This document shows, in pieces, positions 31,717-43,371 of a stretch of DNA of 64,000 nucleotides. Every line of letters begins with the position of its first letter. Positions within the stretch are counted from its first letter, which is position 1. Both the position numbers and the translations under genes were made by a program. The notes under the pieces are model-generated. The model ran no database searches. It was given only the letters and a program-made list of their open reading frames with translations, and had not been told where the DNA came from. Source of the DNA: an uncultured Clostridia bacterium (GTDB taxonomy: Bacteria; Bacillota; Clostridia; Oscillospirales; Acutalibacteraceae); assembly GCA_945876745.1 (NCBI GenBank), contig CAMCPL010000002.1:62001-126000 (forward strand), read 5' to 3'.

Positions 31717-32745
31717 ATGTTTGGTTATGATTTAGGTATAGATTTGGGAACGAGCAATGTTGTAATAACCGTTCCGAACAAGGGCGTTGTTATTAACGAG
31801 CCAAGCTATGTTGCATATAATACCGAGACCGAAAAAATGCTTTATGCCGGCAGAAGAGCCTATTATTTGGAGGGCAGAGAGCCTGCCGGAATTACAGTTA
31901 TGCAGCCGCTTCGAAACGGTGTAATCAGCTCGTATAATATGACTCAGCAGATGATTAGATATTTCATTTCAAGAGTAATAAAAAAGAGTATTTTTAAGCC
32001 GAGGGTTGTTGCGAGCGTACCTGCGCTTGCAACCGATGTAGAAAAAAGAACGATAGTGTCGGTTATTATTTCGGCAGGCGCAAGGTCGGTTTGTCTTGTT
32101 GAAGAGCCGCTTTGTGCGGCATTCGGCGCAGGCGTTGACCTCTTACAGCCAAACGGTGCTTTTGTAATAAATATCGGCGGCGGAACCACCGATATGGCGG
32201 TCGTTTCGCAGGGCACTATGAGCCAGTGTGAAAATGTCAAAATCGCAGGAAATACCTTTGATGAGGAAATCGCAAAATTTATAAAGGAAAAATACGACGT
32301 ACTTGTCGGAATTCGTACCGCCGAGGAAATTAAAAAGCAGATAGGCTCCGCTATTCCCCGTGAGGATAAGATTACTATGACGGTTAAGGGAAGAAGTGTA
32401 AAGGACGGTATGCCGACTACCGTTGAGGTGTCGTCGTCGGAGATATATCATTGTCTTAAACCGCTATTGCAGGAAATTGTTGCGGCGGCGCAGATAATGT
32501 TTGAAAGAACCTCGCCTCAGCTTGTTGCAGATATCGTGTCGTCACATATTATTTTAACAGGCGGCTCCGCCGAAATGTACGGAATTGATAAGCTATTCGC
32601 ACAGGAGCTCGACGTTGATGTTGAGGTTGCTCCTTTTCCGAGCCTTTGCGCCGGCAAGGGTGCAACGGTTGCACTTAACAAAATGCGCTTGCTCGATAGC
32701 TACGGCTACAGATTTAAGACAAAGGAAGAAGTCAGAATAAGATGA
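31717..32745 (+). CDS. MreB/Mbl-family actin-like protein (divergent)
   Basis: The 342-residue protein has the actin-fold phosphate loops of MreB: 'DLGIDLGTSNVVI' (about 5-17), 'FVINIGGGTTDMAVVS' (about 150-165) and the adenosine motif 'IILTGGSAEMYGID' (about 285-298). MreB polymers guide wall synthesis. It lacks the usual mreC/mreD neighbours and many positions deviate ('ALATDVEKRTIVSV', 'MYGID'), so it is probably an additional paralogue. AAGGGTG (31704-31710) favours ATG 31717; ATG 31714 is possible. It overlaps the cobO start by 4 bp (ATGA). Confidence 0.85.
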   Translation: MFGYDLGIDLGTSNVVITVPNKGVVINEPSYVAYNTETEKMLYAGRRAYYLEGREPAGITVMQPLRNGVISSYNMTQQMIRYFISRVIKKSIFKPRVVASVPALATDVEKRTIVSVIISAGARSVCLVEEPLCAAFGAGVDLLQPNGAFVINIGGGTTDMAVVSQGTMSQCENVKIAGNTFDEEIAKFIKEKYDVLVGIRTAEEIKKQIGSAIPREDKITMTVKGRSVKDGMPTTVEVSSSEIYHCLKPLLQEIVAAAQIMFERTSPQLVADIVSSHIILTGGSAEMYGIDKLFAQELDVDVEVAPFPSLCAGKGATVALNKMRLLDSYGYRFKTKEEVRIR

Positions 32746-33209
32746 TTCATTATTATTACGGCTTCGGCAAGGGAAAAACAAGCTCGGCACTCGGCGTCGG
32801 TCTGCGTGCAAGGGGCAACGGTATGAGTGTTTTGCTCGTTCGCTTTTTCAAGGATAATAATTCAAGCGAGCTTGCTTCGGCACCGTTTGATATTTATCCT
32901 GCGCCCGATAAAATACCGTTCAATGTCGGCGTTGAGGAATATCTGCCTTGGGTGAAAAATGCGCTTGATTATATTAGCAAATGTGAAAGTGATGTAATCA
33001 TACTCGATGAATTTGCCGATTTAGTTCCCAAATTTATATCGTTTGACGAGGCAAAGTCGGTTGTAGCCGATAGCAGCAGAGAATATATCATAACCGGTCA
33101 TTACCACAATGAAGCTCTGCACGAGCTTGCCGATTATGTCACACGTTTTGAAAAAGAAAAACACCCTTATGATAACGGCGTTCAGGCTCGTAAGGGTATT
33201 GAATACTGA
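32742..33209 (+). CDS. cobO: Cob(I)yrinic acid a,c-diamide adenosyltransferase-type protein (CobO/BtuR)
   Basis: The 155-residue protein has the P-loop 'YYYGFGKGKTSSALG' (about residues 4-18), 'VIILDEFADL' (about 86) and the C-terminal 'YDNGVQARKGIEY' expected of CobA/CobO/BtuR enzymes, which transfer the 5'-deoxyadenosyl group of ATP to cob(I)alamin or a precursor. It is shorter than typical members (about 180-200), mainly missing the N-terminal extension. It is translationally coupled to an MreB-like gene, a pairing I have not seen described, and lies 3.4 kb before a cobalamin riboswitch. Confidence 0.82.
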   Translation: MIHYYYGFGKGKTSSALGVGLRARGNGMSVLLVRFFKDNNSSELASAPFDIYPAPDKIPFNVGVEEYLPWVKNALDYISKCESDVIILDEFADLVPKFISFDEAKSVVADSSREYIITGHYHNEALHELADYVTRFEKEKHPYDNGVQARKGIEY

Positions 33210-36189: not shown

Positions 36190-36217
36190 TTGACAAATAA
36201 AGCGATTGTGCTATAAT
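36190..36217 (+). promoter_or_regulatory. Promoter of the cobalamin-riboswitch transcript
   Basis: TTGACA (36190-36195), 16-bp spacer, TATAAT (36212-36217). Transcription would start near 36224, just ahead of the riboswitch. Confidence 0.8.
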
Positions 36218-36225
36218 AATTTCGA

Positions 36226-36459
36226 TACAAACGGAATCAAGTGAGAATCTTGAGCAACAGCCATTACTGTGTTTGATGAAAGAGTTGCACATCCATTGGG
36301 CGAAAGCCTGAGAAGGAGCAGCTCCCCGATTGTTCGCATCATAAGTCAGGAGACGCGTATCAAAATAATTTTCGCTTTTGGGCAGGGGAAAGTACGGAAA
36401 TTCAGCGACGATATTATCGTCTTTTTTCTGCGTTCTCTGTCGTGTGACAGAGTTTTTTT
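36226..36459 (+). ncRNA. Cobalamin riboswitch with intrinsic-terminator expression platform
   Basis: The conserved cobalamin aptamer pieces occur in order: GGAATC...GTGAGAATC (36233-36249), GAGC...ACAGCCATTACTGTG (36252-36271), CCATTGGG...GAGAAGG (36293-36316) and the B12 box AAGTCAGGAGAC (36343-36354). A terminator hairpin follows (CTCTGTC 36435-36441, GTGT loop, GACAGAG 36446-36452, seven T). The family senses adenosyl- or methylcobalamin and usually shuts off expression when the ligand is plentiful. It controls the surface-protein gene at 36491. Confidence 0.9.
36435..36459 (+). terminator. Riboswitch-controlled intrinsic terminator
   Basis: A 7-bp stem with GTGT loop followed by seven T, 31 bp before the start codon. 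It is the likely off-switch of the cobalamin riboswitch. Confidence 0.85.
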
Positions 36460-36490
36460 ATTGCGAAAAACAGAAAGGAAATGTGATAAA

Positions 36491-37555
36491 ATGAAAAAAG
36501 TAACATCATTATTATTGTCGCTGATTGTATTAGCTTCTGCGGTGCTTCCGTTAACGGCTTTTGCCGAAACGAAAAAAGAAGCGCTCACCAGTCAGGTGAA
36601 CGAGGATATTGCGGGGCAGGTTGAATTTTTGAATATCACTCCGAGTCTTGACGCGGCTGTTGATGCGTACACTCTTTTTAGGGCAGACCAAAGTAAAAAG
36701 GATATTTTTCTTGCCGAGCTTAATCAAAATCTTACCGACAATTTGGGAAAAATCGTTGTAAGCGGCAGACAGGACGCAGTCGTTTACGCTTGTGTAATCA
36801 ACATTTTGACCCTGTTCGGCGAAAATGTCGAAAGCTATAACGGCGTAAATATCAAAGCCGATTTTGAAGGTCTGTCGGACAAAACAGTTTCAAACCCATA
36901 TTATTATAGGGTTGTAACCGAGGCGTGCAAAAATATCGGCAACACCACGCTCGGTCATCACTTTGTTGACGAGCTTATCGCAAACTATTATACACTCGGT
37001 CAGGGTATGGATTACTACGGCTTTTCGTGCGATAATACTGCGGCTTTTCTTGCTTCAATAGCACCGTATAAAGAGGATTACGCCGTTTATGTTGAAGATG
37101 CAAAGACTGTAATAAACGGCTTTACTACCGACGAAGGTTGCTTTTATGACAGCGTTTATACAGACGTTTCGCCCGATTCGACAGCAATGGCTATGCTTGC
37201 TTATGCTTCGATAGGTGAACACAAAACGGCGAAAACACTTTACGATTGCCTTATGAAAGGCTTTGAAAGTCCGAATTATAATGGCGTAATTATGGCGTGG
37301 GGAGCAGAAAACGCCTACACTACAAAGGAAGCGCTGATGGCGCTGACTTATTTTGAGCCGTCCTTGGCAGTTGATGACGAACCTCTCGTTGAAAACACAA
37401 ATAACCAAAATGGTACTCAAACAGCTTCAAAAGAAAATAATTCTGACGACAACACAATAAGGTCGCCGCAGACGGGTGCAAGCGTTGTATTCGGCTTCGC
37501 GGCTGTGACTGTCGGTACAGCTGTGCTTGCGCTTTCAAAAAGAAAAAATGACTGA
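36491..37555 (+). CDS. Secreted, probably wall-anchored protein of unknown function under cobalamin control
   Basis: The 354-residue protein has a signal peptide (residues 1-25, 'LTAFA' cleavage), a helical domain of about 270 residues, a disordered Asn/Ser-rich linker, and a C-terminal sorting-type end: 'SPQTGA', a hydrophobic helix and 'KRKND'. SPQTG resembles LPXTG/NPQTG motifs. In the helical domain, repeated 'DNTAAFLASIAPYKED' and 'DSTAMAMLAYASIGE' blocks with intervening 'GCFYDS' turns look like an alpha/alpha-toroid (terpenoid cyclase/prenyltransferase-like) fold, the same fold class as the main domain of human intrinsic factor and transcobalamin. The riboswitch suggests cobalamin capture. 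ATG 36491 follows AAAGGA. Confidence 0.75.
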   Translation: MKKVTSLLLSLIVLASAVLPLTAFAETKKEALTSQVNEDIAGQVEFLNITPSLDAAVDAYTLFRADQSKKDIFLAELNQNLTDNLGKIVVSGRQDAVVYACVINILTLFGENVESYNGVNIKADFEGLSDKTVSNPYYYRVVTEACKNIGNTTLGHHFVDELIANYYTLGQGMDYYGFSCDNTAAFLASIAPYKEDYAVYVEDAKTVINGFTTDEGCFYDSVYTDVSPDSTAMAMLAYASIGEHKTAKTLYDCLMKGFESPNYNGVIMAWGAENAYTTKEALMALTYFEPSLAVDDEPLVENTNNQNGTQTASKENNSDDNTIRSPQTGASVVFGFAAVTVGTAVLALSKRKND

Positions 37556-37672: not shown

Positions 37673-37728
37673 GAATTTGACGAGAATAACGGCTCACTAT
37701 TGACTGAATTTGACCGAAAGGTTATAAT
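37673..37728 (+). promoter_or_regulatory. fru operon promoter with a 9-bp direct repeat
   Basis: TTGACT (37700-37705), 17-bp spacer, TATAAT (37723-37728). GAATTTGAC occurs at 37673-37681 and 37706-37714, 33 bp (about three turns) apart, and the second copy lies between -35 and -10. DeoR-family regulators bind such direct repeats, so this is a likely FruR site. Confidence 0.6.
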
Positions 37729-37757
37729 TGAAGCATAAAAGACAGGTGGTGAAAACG

Positions 37758-38504
37758 ATGCTCACACAGGACAGACGAGAGCAGATACTTGATTTTATAT
37801 TGGAAAATGGTTCGGCGGCAGTTTCGGAGCTTTGCGAAAAATTCGACACCTCCGAAAGTACAATCAGACGAGATTTAGTTGCGCTTTCAAAGGCGGGTAA
37901 AATAAATAAGGTGCACGGCGGAGCAACTGTTTTGCCTCAGGAATTTATAAAAAACGAGGACAACGTTCACGAAAAATTCCTGAAAAACATCGACGAAAAG
38001 CTCCTTATTGCACAGTATTGTGCACAGCAGGTTAACGACGACGATTTCGTTTTTATAGACGCCGGAACAAGCACGTATCTTATGCTTGATTACTTAAAGG
38101 ACTCTAAAGCGACGTTTGTAACAAACGGCATATCCCACGGCAAACGGTTTGCACAGCTCGGTTGTAAGGCGTTTGTAATCGGCGGTGAAATAAAGGATAA
38201 AACAGACGCGATTATTGGACTTGTCGCCGCCACGAATCTGCAAAAATACAATTTTTCAAAATCGTTTATCGGAGTAAACGGAATAAGCGAAAAGCAGGGC
38301 TTTACTACTCCCGATACAGACGAGGCGATGTTGAAGGCTGTCGCTATCGAACGAAGCTTTGTAAGCTACGCACTTGCCGATCATACAAAATTCGGCAAGG
38401 TTTCGGCAGTAACCTTTGCACAGATTGATTCGGCGTGTATAGTTTGCGACAGATGTGACGATGATATTATAAAAAGCAGGGCGGTTGTTAAGGAGCTTTC
38501 CTAA
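37758..38504 (+). CDS. fruR: DeoR-family regulator of the fructose operon
   Basis: The 248-residue regulator has a DeoR helix-turn-helix ('LTQDRREQILDFILENGSAAVSELCEKFDTSESTIRRDLVALSKAGKINKVHGGA', residues 2-56) and a sugar-isomerase-like sensor domain ('FIDAGTSTYLMLDYL', 'VTNGI', 'GVNGISEKQGFTTPDTDEAMLKA'). FruR repressors respond to fructose-1-phosphate, the product of the neighbouring PTS. ATG 37758 is chosen because AGGTGGTG precedes it by seven bases. fruK follows after 21 bp. Confidence 0.92.
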   Translation: MLTQDRREQILDFILENGSAAVSELCEKFDTSESTIRRDLVALSKAGKINKVHGGATVLPQEFIKNEDNVHEKFLKNIDEKLLIAQYCAQQVNDDDFVFIDAGTSTYLMLDYLKDSKATFVTNGISHGKRFAQLGCKAFVIGGEIKDKTDAIIGLVAATNLQKYNFSKSFIGVNGISEKQGFTTPDTDEAMLKAVAIERSFVSYALADHTKFGKVSAVTFAQIDSACIVCDRCDDDIIKSRAVVKELS

Positions 38505-38525
38505 TCTGAAAATGAAGGTGATTTT

Positions 38526-39428
38526 ATGATTTATACAGTTACTCTTAATCCTGCACTTGATTATGTAATGAAGGTCGGAAATATCAGATATGATGATATT
38601 AACCGTTCGGAGAGTGAGGAAATATATTACGGCGGCAAGGGAATAAACGTTTCCGTAATACTAACTCGACTCGGTGTTGAAAATAAGGCGCTCGGTTTTG
38701 TCGGCGGCTTTACGGGCGAGAAGCTATATGAGATGCTGAAAAAAGACGGTATTGACTGTGATTTCAATATTCTCAAAAACGGCTACACGAGAATTAATGT
38801 TAAAATTAAGGCGCAAACAGAGCTTGACGTTAATGCGCAGGGACCTGCTATCGACGAGGAGGATATTGCACTTCTTCTCGAAAAGCTGGACGGAATAAAA
38901 CAAGGGGATTTCCTTGTTCTTGCAGGCTCAATTCCAAACACCCTGCCCGATGATATTTACGAAAGGATATTGTCACGCCTTGACGGCAGAGGAATAAATT
39001 TTGTTGTTGACGCAACGGGCGACTTGCTCAAAAATGTTTTGAAGTATAAGCCGTTTTTGATAAAGCCGAATCATCACGAGCTCGGCGACTTGTTCAAAGT
39101 TGAAGCAAAATCGGAGCAGGATATAGTTTTTTATGCAAAGAAATTGCAGGAAATGGGTGCAAGAAATGTGCTTGTTTCGCGTGCTAAGGACGGTGCAACG
39201 CTGATTGACGAGCAGAAAAACGTTACAACCTTTGAAAATGTTGAGGGCGAGCTTGTCAATTCCGTTGGCTGCGGCGACAGTATGGTCGGTGGATTTCTTG
39301 CAGGTTGGATAGAAAAGGGCGATTATTCTTACGCCTTAAAGTTAGGTGCGGCTTGCGGAAATGCAACTGCCTTTTCGCAGGAGCTTGCAACCGCTGATGA
39401 AATAAGAAACGTATTTGACATAATGTAA
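38526..39428 (+). CDS. fruK: 1-phosphofructokinase
   Basis: The 300-residue PfkB-family kinase phosphorylates fructose-1-phosphate to fructose-1,6-bisphosphate with ATP. It starts 'MIYTVTLNPALDYVM', has 'YYGGKGINVSVILTRLG' (about residues 34-50) and the ATP/anion-hole motif 'NSVGCGDSMVGGFLAGW' (about 241-257, catalytic Asp248), with Cys replacing the usual Ala. AAGGTGAT lies upstream. It sits between fruR and fruA. Confidence 0.95.
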   Translation: MIYTVTLNPALDYVMKVGNIRYDDINRSESEEIYYGGKGINVSVILTRLGVENKALGFVGGFTGEKLYEMLKKDGIDCDFNILKNGYTRINVKIKAQTELDVNAQGPAIDEEDIALLLEKLDGIKQGDFLVLAGSIPNTLPDDIYERILSRLDGRGINFVVDATGDLLKNVLKYKPFLIKPNHHELGDLFKVEAKSEQDIVFYAKKLQEMGARNVLVSRAKDGATLIDEQKNVTTFENVEGELVNSVGCGDSMVGGFLAGWIEKGDYSYALKLGAACGNATAFSQELATADEIRNVFDIM

Positions 39429-39479
39429 AATACGATAAAAAATTATTCAAATTATTCTAATATAAACGGAGGGAAAAAT

Positions 39480-41435
39480 ATGAGAATAATTGATTTGCTT
39501 AAACCGAATGCAATTGATTTGAATGCTTCGGTACAAACAAAGGACGAGGCGATAGATAAATTAGTGTCGCTTCACGCACAGGCAGGCAATCTAAATGATG
39601 CCGAAGCCTACAAGCAGGCTATTTACGCAAGGGAAGCGCAGGGTACAACTGCTATCGGTGAGGGAATTGCCGTTCCGCACGCAAAAAGCGACAGCGTAAA
39701 AACGCCGGGCTTGAGCGCAATCACCGTTGCAAATGGCGTTGATTATAACGCTCCCGACGGTAAAAACAGCGATATTCTGTTTATGATTGCCGCAACCATG
39801 GATGGAGATTTGCATTTGGAAATTCTTTCCCGACTTATGGTTATGCTTATGAAAAGCGATTTCTGCAATGCACTTCGCAGTGCAAAAACAGTTGATGAAT
39901 TTCTCGAAATAATCGACAAAAAGGAAAGCGAGAAATATCCAAATGAGGCAAAGGCAACGGCTCAGCAAAAGCAGGGCTATAAGATTTTAGCCGTAACAGC
40001 CTGCCCGACAGGTATTGCCCATACTTATATGGCGGCAGAGGCACTTGAAAAAGCGGCTGAAAAAATGGGATTTTCGCTCAAGGCAGAAACAAACGGTTCC
40101 GGCGGTGCAAAGAATGTTCTTACAAAGGCAGAAATCGCAGAATGTGACGGTATTATTATTGCCGCAGATAAGAATGTTGAAATGGCACGCTTCGACGGTA
40201 AGCCTGTTGTAAAAACCTCTGTATCAAACGGTATTAACAAGCCTGAGGAGCTTATTCAAAGAATACTTGACGGCAAGGCTCCCGTTTATCACAACGACGG
40301 CGCAGTATCTCAAAGTGACGACGATTTAGACAAGGAGGGCTTCGGACACAAGGTGTATAAGCACCTTATGAACGGCGTTTCACATATGCTTCCGTTCGTA
40401 GTAGGCGGCGGTGTACTGATTGCTCTTGGCTTCCTTATTGATACTCTTTTGGGCAATGCGGTAATGCCCGACGGCTCGGCAAACGGCGCATTCGGATTTA
40501 CAAGCTTTGCGGCTTCCGTTCCGTTTTGGATAGGAAAAATCGTGTTCGGCTTTATGCTTCCGATTTTGTCGGGATATATCGCACAGTCAATTGCAGACAG
40601 ACCCGGCTTGCTTCCCGGTATGCTCGGCGGTATGATTGCCGCAAACGGCTTCACCTTTAATTCAATGTTTGAAAATCAAAATATGGTCGGCGACGGCTCG
40701 GCTGTTTCGGGATTTTTGGGCGCATTGTTTGCAGGCTTCGCCGCAGGCTTAATCGTAAACGGACTCAAAAAGGTATTCGCTTGGCTTCCAAAAGCAATGG
40801 ATGGTATTAAGCCGGTATTCCTTTATCCGCTTTTCGGCTCGTTCCTTGTAGGAGCGCTTATGTGTCTGCTTAATCCGATTATCGGAACAGTAAACACAGC
40901 CGTATCAAATTTGCTTTCGTCACTCGGTGCAACAAGCCAGATTCTTCTTTCAATCGTTCTTGCGGCTATGATGGCAACCGATATGGGCGGTCCTTTCAAC
41001 AAGGCGGCTTACGTTTTCGGAACTGCCGCTATCGCAGACGGCAACACTTGGATTATGGCGGCTGTTATGATAGGCGGTATGGTACCTCCTATTGCAATCG
41101 CTCTTTCGACCACCTTTGCAAAGAAAAAGTGGACAGATGAGGAAAGAAAGAACGGACCTGTTAACTATCTTATGGGACTTTGCTTCATTACTGAGGGCGC
41201 AATTCCTTACGCTGCCTCCGACCCGCTTCGTGTAATTCCGTCATGTATGGCAGGCTCGGCAGTCGCAGGTGCACTCACGGCATTGTTCAAGGTTAAATGC
41301 CCTGCACCTCACGGCGGTATCTTCACCTTTGCAGTTTGTGAGCATCCGCTTCTCTACATTGCGGCACTCGTTGCAGGCTCGCTTGTAGGCGCACTTGTTC
41401 TGACGCTTCTCAAGAAAAACAAAACTCAAAACTAA
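39480..41435 (+). CDS. fruA: Fructose PTS transporter, EIIABC
   Basis: The 651-residue transporter imports fructose and phosphorylates it at C1. Domains run EIIA (1-145, phosphorylated His67 in 'IAVPHAKSD'), EIIB (about 167-265, Cys175 in 'AVTACPTGIAHTY') and a membrane EIIC (about 285-640, 'VGGGVLIALGFLID', 'PGLLPGMLGGMIAANGF', 'TEGAIPYAASDPLRVIP'). All are fused in one chain, the common Firmicute arrangement. GGAGGG precedes the ATG. Confidence 0.95.
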   Translation: MRIIDLLKPNAIDLNASVQTKDEAIDKLVSLHAQAGNLNDAEAYKQAIYAREAQGTTAIGEGIAVPHAKSDSVKTPGLSAITVANGVDYNAPDGKNSDILFMIAATMDGDLHLEILSRLMVMLMKSDFCNALRSAKTVDEFLEIIDKKESEKYPNEAKATAQQKQGYKILAVTACPTGIAHTYMAAEALEKAAEKMGFSLKAETNGSGGAKNVLTKAEIAECDGIIIAADKNVEMARFDGKPVVKTSVSNGINKPEELIQRILDGKAPVYHNDGAVSQSDDDLDKEGFGHKVYKHLMNGVSHMLPFVVGGGVLIALGFLIDTLLGNAVMPDGSANGAFGFTSFAASVPFWIGKIVFGFMLPILSGYIAQSIADRPGLLPGMLGGMIAANGFTFNSMFENQNMVGDGSAVSGFLGALFAGFAAGLIVNGLKKVFAWLPKAMDGIKPVFLYPLFGSFLVGALMCLLNPIIGTVNTAVSNLLSSLGATSQILLSIVLAAMMATDMGGPFNKAAYVFGTAAIADGNTWIMAAVMIGGMVPPIAIALSTTFAKKKWTDEERKNGPVNYLMGLCFITEGAIPYAASDPLRVIPSCMAGSAVAGALTALFKVKCPAPHGGIFTFAVCEHPLLYIAALVAGSLVGALVLTLLKKNKTQN

Positions 41436-41466
41436 AAGTAATTGAATTAATCAGAGAGGTATAATT

Positions 41467-41733
41467 ATGGTATCAAAGGAATTTACACTCAAGAATAAAA
41501 TGGGATTTCATATGAGACCTGCTAATGTATTTGTAACCGAAATGACAAAGTTTTCGTCCGATATAAATATAATTTTCAACGGAAAAACAATAAACGGCAA
41601 GAGTATTATGAACATTATGGCGGCTTGTATTAAATGCGGCAGTACAATAACTGTTGAGTGCAGCGGTGCCGATGAAAACGAAATGCTCAATGCGGCTTCG
41701 ACACTTATAGAAGACGGCTTCGGCGAAGAATAA
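41467..41733 (+). CDS. ptsH: Phosphocarrier protein HPr
   Basis: The 88-residue protein carries phosphate from EI to EIIA. The active-site His15 is in 'GFHMRPAN' (usual 'GxHARPA', here Met for Ala) and the regulatory Ser46 in 'NGKSIMNIM' is present, so HPr kinase control could act. It lies 31 bp after fruA rather than in a separate pts operon. Confidence 0.93.
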   Translation: MVSKEFTLKNKMGFHMRPANVFVTEMTKFSSDINIIFNGKTINGKSIMNIMAACIKCGSTITVECSGADENEMLNAASTLIEDGFGEE

Positions 41734-41757
41734 AAAAATTTGAAAAGAGGTATTCCT

Positions 41758-43371
41758 ATGTTAAAGGGTATTGGCTCTTCGGGTGGCTACGGAATAGGAA
41801 AAGCGGTAATCATAAGGGATTGCACGCTTGATTACAAATCGGTCAAGTACACCACCGCAGATGATGAAAAATCAAGGCTTCGCAGTGCCGTTGAACGTTT
41901 TGAGCAGGAAACGAGAAGTCTGGTTGAGGACTTAAAGGAAAACGCCGGAGAAAAGGAAGCAGAGATACTCGAAGGTCATCTTATGATGCTTCAGGACCCG
42001 TTTATGCTGTCTCAAATGGAGGAGGGCATTGATGCGGGCAGTGTTGCAGAAGCGGCGGTTGACTCAGTTTGCACAATGTTTATTGATATGTTTTCGTCGG
42101 TTGACGACGAGCTTACACGTCAGCGTGCGAGTGATGTTAAGGATATTAAAAACAGTCTGCTTGAAATACTTCTCGGCGTTGAGAAAACCGATATTTCAAG
42201 CGTTGCGAAAAACAGTATTCTTATCGCAAAGGATTTTACTCCGTCTATGACATCGCGTATTAATGCAAAAAATGTTTGCGCAATTGTAACCGAGGTGGGC
42301 GGTGTGACGAGCCACAGCGCAATTCTTGCAAGGGCTATGGGAATACCTGCCGTTATGTCAGTAGTAGGTGCTACCGAAGTTATTGCAGACGGCGAGGAGC
42401 TTATTGTTGACGGCTTCAAGGGTAAAATTATTACCAATCCGACGAGTAACGAACTTGCCTTATACAAGCAAAAATATAATGATTTTTTGCAGGAAAAGGA
42501 GAGCCTTAACGAATATTTCGGCAAGGCTACCGTTACAAAAAGCGGCGTTGTAAAAAAGGTTTACGGAAATATCGGCAGACCTGAGGATGTTCAAAATGTG
42601 CTCCAGTCGTCGGGCGAGGGAATAGGACTTTTCAGAACGGAATTTCTCTTTATGGACAGAGACAGATGTCCTACCGAGGACGAGCAGTTTGAGGCGTATT
42701 CAACAGTTGCTCGCGCTATGGGCGACAAAGAGGTAATTATCCGAACTCTTGACATCGGCGGCGACAAGGCTATTGAATATCTCAAAATCGAAAGGGAGGA
42801 AAATCCGTTTCTCGGTCACAGAGCAATTCGCTATTGCCTCGATAATACGGAGCTTTACAAGACGCAGCTTAAAGCGATTTTGAGAGCAGGTCAGTTCGGC
42901 GATATAAAAATTATGCTTCCTCTTGTAACTACTCTTGACGAGGTTAGACGTGCCAAGGCACTCATTGACGAGTGTTGTGACGAACTCGAACAACAGGGCA
43001 AGCGTTACAAAAAAGCACCTCTCGGCGTTATGATAGAAACTCCGTCTGCTGCGCTGATTTCGGATTTGCTTGCTAAAGAGGTTGAATTCTTCTCGATAGG
43101 CACCAATGACCTAACAGGCTACATTATGGCGGTCGACCGAGGAAACGCAAATGTAAGCAGCTTGTATGATGTATTTCAGCCGTCTGTTCTTCGTGCGATA
43201 GAAATGACGATTAAAAATGCAAAAGCCGCAGGTATAACTGTCGGTATGTGCGGAGAGGCCGCTGCTCACGCAGATTTAATACCGAAGCTTGTTGAATGGG
43301 GACTTGACGAATTCAGCGTTTCGCCGTCGTCAATTCTTCAAACAAGAAAGTATATCTGCTCGTGTAAATAA
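41758..43371 (+). CDS. ptsI: PTS enzyme I
   Basis: The 537-residue enzyme transfers phosphate from phosphoenolpyruvate to HPr. The phospho-histidine is in 'GGVTSHSAILARAMGIPAV' (about residue 184). The C-terminal PEP-binding barrel has 'GIGLFRTEFLFMDRDRCPTEDEQ', 'IRTLDIGGDKA' and 'GMCGEAAA'. ATG 41758 is chosen over TTG 41740. It closes the fru operon, which therefore carries a complete PEP-to-fructose phosphorylation chain. Confidence 0.95.
   Translation: MLKGIGSSGGYGIGKAVIIRDCTLDYKSVKYTTADDEKSRLRSAVERFEQETRSLVEDLKENAGEKEAEILEGHLMMLQDPFMLSQMEEGIDAGSVAEAAVDSVCTMFIDMFSSVDDELTRQRASDVKDIKNSLLEILLGVEKTDISSVAKNSILIAKDFTPSMTSRINAKNVCAIVTEVGGVTSHSAILARAMGIPAVMSVVGATEVIADGEELIVDGFKGKIITNPTSNELALYKQKYNDFLQEKESLNEYFGKATVTKSGVVKKVYGNIGRPEDVQNVLQSSGEGIGLFRTEFLFMDRDRCPTEDEQFEAYSTVARAMGDKEVIIRTLDIGGDKAIEYLKIEREENPFLGHRAIRYCLDNTELYKTQLKAILRAGQFGDIKIMLPLVTTLDEVRRAKALIDECCDELEQQGKRYKKAPLGVMIETPSAALISDLLAKEVEFFSIGTNDLTGYIMAVDRGNANVSSLYDVFQPSVLRAIEMTIKNAKAAGITVGMCGEAAAHADLIPKLVEWGLDEFSVSPSSILQTRKYICSCK

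Follow-up and report, generated by a model that had tools for sequence, protein, structure and literature searches.

Which protein does a clostridial bacterium place behind its only cobalamin riboswitch, and what might that protein do with vitamin B12? The question is raised by a 64,000-nt stretch of contig CAMCPL010000002.1 (referred to here as the window) from an uncultured member of the Acutalibacteraceae (G000; 1.93 Mb, 18 contigs, 98.6% complete), in which a promoter, a cobalamin riboswitch, two terminator-like hairpins and a 354-codon gene, P0001, follow one another on the forward strand. A sequence-only reading had described the product as a wall-anchored helical protein that may hold B12 for an importer. 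The riboswitch, the fold, the homology of the toroid domain to toroids linked to DUF4430 (a transcobalamin-beta-like domain), a beta partner, the family of the importer and the enzymes CobA and MetH were computed, and together they make it probable that P0001 is a riboswitch-controlled, wall-anchored catcher of B12 (corrinoid), akin to intrinsic factor and transcobalamin, which feeds a CbrT importer together with a beta lipoprotein.

The aptamer (36194..36376, + strand) matches RF00174 with 54.7 bits (E 7.5e-11) against a gathering score of 31.5 bits, being the only Rfam match above the gathering score in the window and the single RF00174 match in the whole genome. A sigma-70 promoter (TTGACA-N16-TATAAT, its -10 element preceded by TG; 36190..36217, +) agrees with the consensus at 12 of 12 positions and overlaps the 5' P1 strand drawn by Rfam in the region 36190-36228. 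By eye, a shorter P1 that begins just past the -10 element is likely the better fit, with TTTCGATAC (36220..36228, +) as the likely 5' strand pairing with GTATCAAAA at 36357-36365, and the transcript therefore seems to start at the aptamer edge. Downstream, a hairpin scan gave two terminator-like structures on the + strand, hairpin 1 with a U6 tract (36407..36427; hairpin 36407-36421) and hairpin 2 with a U7 tract (36435..36459; hairpin 36435-36452), the latter assigned to the expression platform. In the minimum-energy fold of 36378-36500, hairpin 2 forms, and a longer hairpin replaces hairpin 1, absorbing its U-tract. The element would be an OFF switch responding to adenosylcobalamin. Promoter, aptamer and terminator platform had all been predicted from the letters, and all are present within 36190..37555, although the coding region begins only at 36491.

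P0001 (36491..37555, +; open reading frame of 354 amino acids) starts with a signal peptide recognised by eye (residues 1-25, 36491..36565, cleavage after AFA), continues with an alpha/alpha-toroid domain (residues 27-304, 36569..37402) and a polar linker rich in Asn, Gln, Ser and Thr, also delimited by eye (residues 305-324, 37403..37462), and ends in a sorting signal (37463..37552) made of SPQTG (residues 325-329, 37463-37477), a hydrophobic stretch and KRKND, as found by a sequence check. The Pfam anchor model scores 13.2 bits on the protein, below its cut-off of 20; the features of a sortase substrate are all present, namely an xPxTG motif, a hydrophobic stretch, a basic tail and a genomic sortase (three matches), and P0001 would thus be attached to the wall by sortase. 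Signal peptide, helical domain, SPQTG motif and basic tail were all correctly recognised from the sequence. The same reading had suggested the alpha/alpha-toroid class for the helical domain and had set a different fold beforehand as a possible refutation; the structure model is an alpha/alpha toroid with a predicted local distance difference test (pLDDT) score of 95.9.

No domain of P0001 scored above cut-off in Pfam or NCBIfam, where the entries below cut-off were mostly anchor-type tails, a PDB sequence search with P0001 alone returned nothing useful, and a profile of the genus toroids (A1) found no match in PDB. PF01122 (Cobalamin_bind) had no match above cut-off in nine genomes including that of the window, among which no control genome has a member, and the alpha domains of intrinsic factor and transcobalamin are not among the 50 structure matches listed for the toroid model, an absence from that list only. 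Across 44 aligned rows, S179 is conserved in 43 and D181, S230 and T231 in all 44, so that the DNTAAFLAS and DSTAMAMLA stretches singled out earlier are indeed there and partly conserved. Candidate ligand contacts are four conserved toroid segments, YYG-SCDNT, NADSTA, TGxF and ATxDAL.

Homologues were sought in 60 genomes, 37 from the genus that holds E. coprostanoligenes (window genome included), which we take to be Eubacterium_R in GTDB, and 23 others. The search detected the toroid gene in 33 of the 37 genus genomes, with no match in G008, G010, G020 or G024; outside the genus, only one genome of 23 (G039) matched, weakly. The cultured relative E. coprostanoligenes ATCC 51222 has the gene (L118). 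RF00174 is present in 36 of the 37, mostly in one copy. Of the 33 genus genomes with a toroid gene, 32 have it no more than 3 kb upstream of that gene and on the same strand, G032 being the exception. Thirty homologue loci (L002-L031) were fetched and provided the counts of architectures, tails and riboswitches; cmscan placed a riboswitch at 27 of them, the others being L003 and L017 (contig-end cut) and L027 (from G032). The homologues share 24-39% identity with the window toroid domain. Since the riboswitch stands upstream in 32/33 genomes and at 27/30 loci, the regulatory link between riboswitch and toroid is conserved across divergent proteins. This outcome favours the sequence-only reading, which had named homologues without cobalamin riboswitches or B12 genes as a further possible refutation. 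The toroid is the constant part and the tails differ: 19 of the 30 homologues have a toroid without an extra N-terminal domain, nine carry an N-terminal extension and two are truncated, while an SPxTG tail occurs in 13, choline-binding repeats in two and other tails in the remainder, with Fn3 domains in six of ten homologues scanned. At the 5' end of L003 (on the strand of the match) the frame starts with residues resembling read-through of a sequencing adapter, and the contig end is therefore probably artefactual.

Intrinsic factor and transcobalamin bind B12 in a two-domain site, of which P0001 has only the alpha half: no DUF4430-type beta domain was found in its chain by sequence, Pfam scan or model. 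In the window genome this domain resides on a separate lipoprotein. The proposal of an intrinsic-factor-like holder at the wall accordingly keeps its toroid and gains beta-like partners, with the correction that P0001 is one half of such a holder. In nine of the 30 homologues the toroid is preceded by an extra N-terminal domain that Pfam does not name. When one of these was modelled, the beta domains of transcobalamin and haptocorrin were its top PDB matches (best Foldseek E 1.3e-3). A sequence profile of the beta half placed one bacterial DUF4430-like protein first, followed by intrinsic factor and transcobalamin-1, while several entries without relation to these carriers (from E 0.3) ranked ahead of some transcobalamin-2 chains, which reached E 1.2, and the profile of the N-terminal domain of the homologues (A6) had no match in PDB. 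Compared with DUF4430 by hhalign, the first N-terminal domain alone reached a probability of 54 (E 1.3e-4), whereas the whole N-terminal region failed (probability 0.4). The DUF4430 lipoprotein gene adjoins the toroid gene in 13 of the 19 toroid-alone homologues as against none of the nine fused ones, a comparison that ignores phylogeny, in which DUF4430 and the toroid gene are on different contigs in all nine fused cases, G032 is scored as not adjacent (its DUF4430 gene adjoins the riboswitch, with the toroid elsewhere), and toroid genes lacking a full-length fetched locus are omitted, such as those of G014 and G028, where DUF4430 stands beside the riboswitch.

Some genus members depart from this scheme. 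The cobalamin riboswitch of G032 (L103, 9350-9525, - strand) adjoins a divergent DUF4430 gene and is followed on its own strand by no open reading frame above 93 amino acids within 1.5 kb; the toroid gene lies on a different contig and has no riboswitch match. G020 (L160, 1490-5425, -) and G024 (L161, 5505-9257, -), which have no detectable toroid gene, each encode a surface protein with DUF4430 that is linked to a riboswitch and is 1311 and 1250 amino acids long, respectively.

Toroid and DUF4430 also occur in one chain, both in the genus (G008, G035) and in other families (G039, G044, G053, G057), while G049 has a 1159-residue toroid protein without DUF4430 and a separate DUF4430 gene nearby; E-values of the DUF4430 and toroid matches in these wider-family loci, and in the class-wide loci below, were computed on small sets of frames. 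A profile of seven DUF4430-linked toroids (A8) is homologous to the genus toroids (A1; hhalign probability 99, E 9.4e-18) and, against PDB, found squalene-hopene cyclases and not intrinsic factor or transcobalamin. In G039, toroid, membrane segment and DUF4430 are followed by T-, AA- and S-like genes of an energy-coupling factor (ECF) transporter (S by Pfam), and the genome has no RF00174 match. In G008 (L102, 1844-9685, -), a riboswitch precedes a 2613-amino-acid surface protein with DUF4430, a C-terminal toroid and an SPLTG tail, and a DUF4430 lipoprotein, an ECF T and an ECF AA-S gene are divergent from it. The riboswitch of G044 is followed by DUF4430, an immunoglobulin-like stretch, the toroid and an NPYTG tail. 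Class-wide, the toroid profile matched in 80 of 391 genomes (window genome included), many matches being weak and partial; at 29 loci inspected, one per genome with about 1.5 kb on each side, a DUF4430-like domain lay in or beside the match at 18 and a cobalamin riboswitch at four.

A few observations concern the fringes of the family. The DUF4430-fused toroids at L101 (8440-10440, -; G044) and L107 (9365-11179, +; G039) resemble the NCBIfam SCO2321 family membrane protein, a likeness far below cut-off (E 1.9e-9 and 1.4e-6) that hints at relatives in Streptomyces. Outside Clostridia, an Anaerolineae locus (L159, 3129-4205, +) codes for a secreted protein with a toroid, which matches the family profile in part (E 1.9e-11, computed on a small set of frames). 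G051 (L165, 4993-6244, +) shows a riboswitch, a small membrane-anchored DUF4430 protein and a small ECF S-like protein. No relatives were confirmed in the viral contigs searched.

BtuFCD, which the sequence-only reading had suggested looking for, was rejected as partner: the window genome has no match to the FecCD (BtuC) permease, against 13 of 14 genomes positive in the control. An ECF-like cluster lies on contig 10; its S component, in a profile built from the window genome and five relatives, matches ECF-CbrT (6fnp_A) at E 7.6e-17, and its T gene, without a Pfam match at 1e-5, was recognised from its place in the cluster. ECF-CbrT (PDB 6FNP) is a characterised B12 ECF transporter (PMC5997447), and the importer is thus likely of the CbrT type rather than BtuFCD. 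Homologues of the S component were found in 33 of the 37 genus genomes. The window also encodes a cob(I)alamin adenosyltransferase (CobA/BtuR, 155 amino acids; 32742..33209, +; PF02572, E 3.3e-33) 3 kb upstream of the riboswitch and not on the same transcript; the enzyme is present in 17 of the 37 genus genomes, and in 13 of these 17 its gene precedes the S gene by 2.3-2.4 kb, both being on one strand. The genome also encodes a methionine synthase of the MetH type, which has B12-binding domains and is its only PF02310 match. CbiC, the single biosynthesis marker searched, was not found, and B12 auxotrophy is therefore likely. Directly downstream of P0001, at 37728-43371 (+), lies what by eye is a fructose phosphotransferase system (PTS)-like operon, apparently unrelated, with a DeoR-type regulator, 1-phosphofructokinase, PTS enzyme II, HPr and enzyme I.

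Taken as a mechanism, low cellular adenosylcobalamin would let the riboswitch allow readthrough of the terminator or terminators, and the protein would be made, secreted and then attached to the wall by sortase. Its toroid would correspond to the alpha domain in intrinsic factor and transcobalamin, with B12 as the putative ligand, and the matching DUF4430 beta domain would be supplied by a separate lipoprotein here and in toroid-alone members of the genus, or by N-terminal fusion in others. Read most economically, the transcobalamin machine would exist here in two pieces, the toroid at the wall and the beta lipoprotein at the membrane. The two halves may assemble on B12, hold it at the surface and hand it over to the CbrT-type ECF importer; CobA would convert the imported B12 to adenosylcobalamin, with MetH as one user. 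More tentatively, and about as open to doubt as to belief, the pair may form a split intrinsic factor, in which the wall toroid and the membrane beta-grasp lipoprotein close on one B12 molecule and pass it to CbrT.

Three other accounts were weighed beside that of a B12 catcher feeding its own importer. P0001 is the sole RF00174-preceded gene in its genome and shares no operon with the importer, and BtuG2, a surface protein of Bacteroides, is able to take B12 away from intrinsic factor (PMC6977713); P0001 might thus be a wall-bound B12 store, a decoy or a stripper of other carriers. We consider this quite unlikely, given that toroid, DUF4430 and ECF genes cluster in the relatives G039 and G008, which fits delivery to an importer. 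That the toroid binds another ligand or surface, as an adhesin or a binder of heme or another tetrapyrrole, with the riboswitch marking B12 status only, would agree with a weak C-terminal likeness to sortase-dependent surface proteins including IsdC and with the variety of tails, which are sortase signals in some proteins, choline-binding repeats in others and Fn3-like ends in still others. It is nevertheless very unlikely: the IsdC-type similarity is limited to the anchor region, and searches with the beta-domain partners place B12 carriers first or nearly so.

A surface enzyme of hydrolase or cyclase type repressed by B12, such as a B12-independent substitute, would suit the solved toroids nearest to the model, which among the matches listed are GH105/GH88, epimerases and terpene cyclases, and cobalamin riboswitches also control B12-independent isozymes (PMC3766115). 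We regard this as quite unlikely, since sequence searches match no enzyme family in Pfam or NCBIfam and an enzyme would not account for the transcobalamin-beta-like domains that are fused to the toroid or encoded next to it. The DxDD motif, which we take to be the catalytic acid motif of class II terpene cyclases, is absent: the column of its first Asp, positioned by eye, holds Ser in 43 rows and Gly in one, and with Asp there in none of the 44 rows a class II terpene cyclase is judged unlikely.

A B12 catcher built from a toroid and a beta partner has precedents. Transcobalamin holds a single B12 molecule between its toroid and its beta-grasp domain (PMC1796856), and the alpha/alpha-toroid plus beta-grasp (DUF4430) design of intrinsic factor, transcobalamin and haptocorrin recurs here; the bacterial system differs in that the halves are separate, or fused in reverse order within the genus, in its wall or membrane anchoring and riboswitch, and in an alpha domain without sequence match to PF01122. 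Burroughs et al. (2007) reported fusions between alpha/alpha toroids and bacterial SLBB/transcobalamin-like domains, in surface proteins of low-GC Gram-positives, some of them wall-anchored, and proposed these as B12 scavengers, with operons containing CbiO/CbiQ-like transport genes and sometimes a second SLBB protein (PMC1796856). The general idea of bacterial transcobalamin-like B12 scavengers has been in print since 2007. In the available text of that account the toroid precedes or follows SLBB and all cases are described as fusions, whereas the toroid of P0001 stands alone; its main text nowhere uses the word riboswitch, in contrast to the riboswitch control seen here, and beside its CbiO/CbiQ-like operons an S component is here identified as CbrT-like. 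BtuG and BtuH of gut Bacteroidetes are likewise extra surface B12-binding proteins, riboswitch-associated and helping an importer, but BtuG is a beta-propeller partnered with the outer-membrane BtuB, and the available text mentions no toroid plus DUF4430 design; in E. siraeum, a homologue of BtuH is noted close to a predicted ECF transporter for cobamides (PMC8941943). A literature search of mostly open papers, with most subscription ones outside it, found neither the split form of toroid and beta lipoprotein, nor a toroid gene behind a genome's only cobalamin riboswitch, nor the transcobalamin-like N-terminal domain unnamed by Pfam, nor the CbrT/CobA linkage. As far as these searches show, the split into a lone toroid and a beta lipoprotein is apparently new, and so are the riboswitch control and the CbrT link.

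If this interpretation is true, an unannotated protein family would supply the alpha half of a receptor with which bacteria bind B12 and which shares its design with the human carrier, and fused and split forms of one machine would coexist within a single genus. The ECF system would gain an extracellular two-part receptor besides the S component that is described as its substrate-binding protein. With this family it would also become possible to test in concrete terms the idea, put forward in 2007, that the carrier design of animals came from Gram-positive bacteria.
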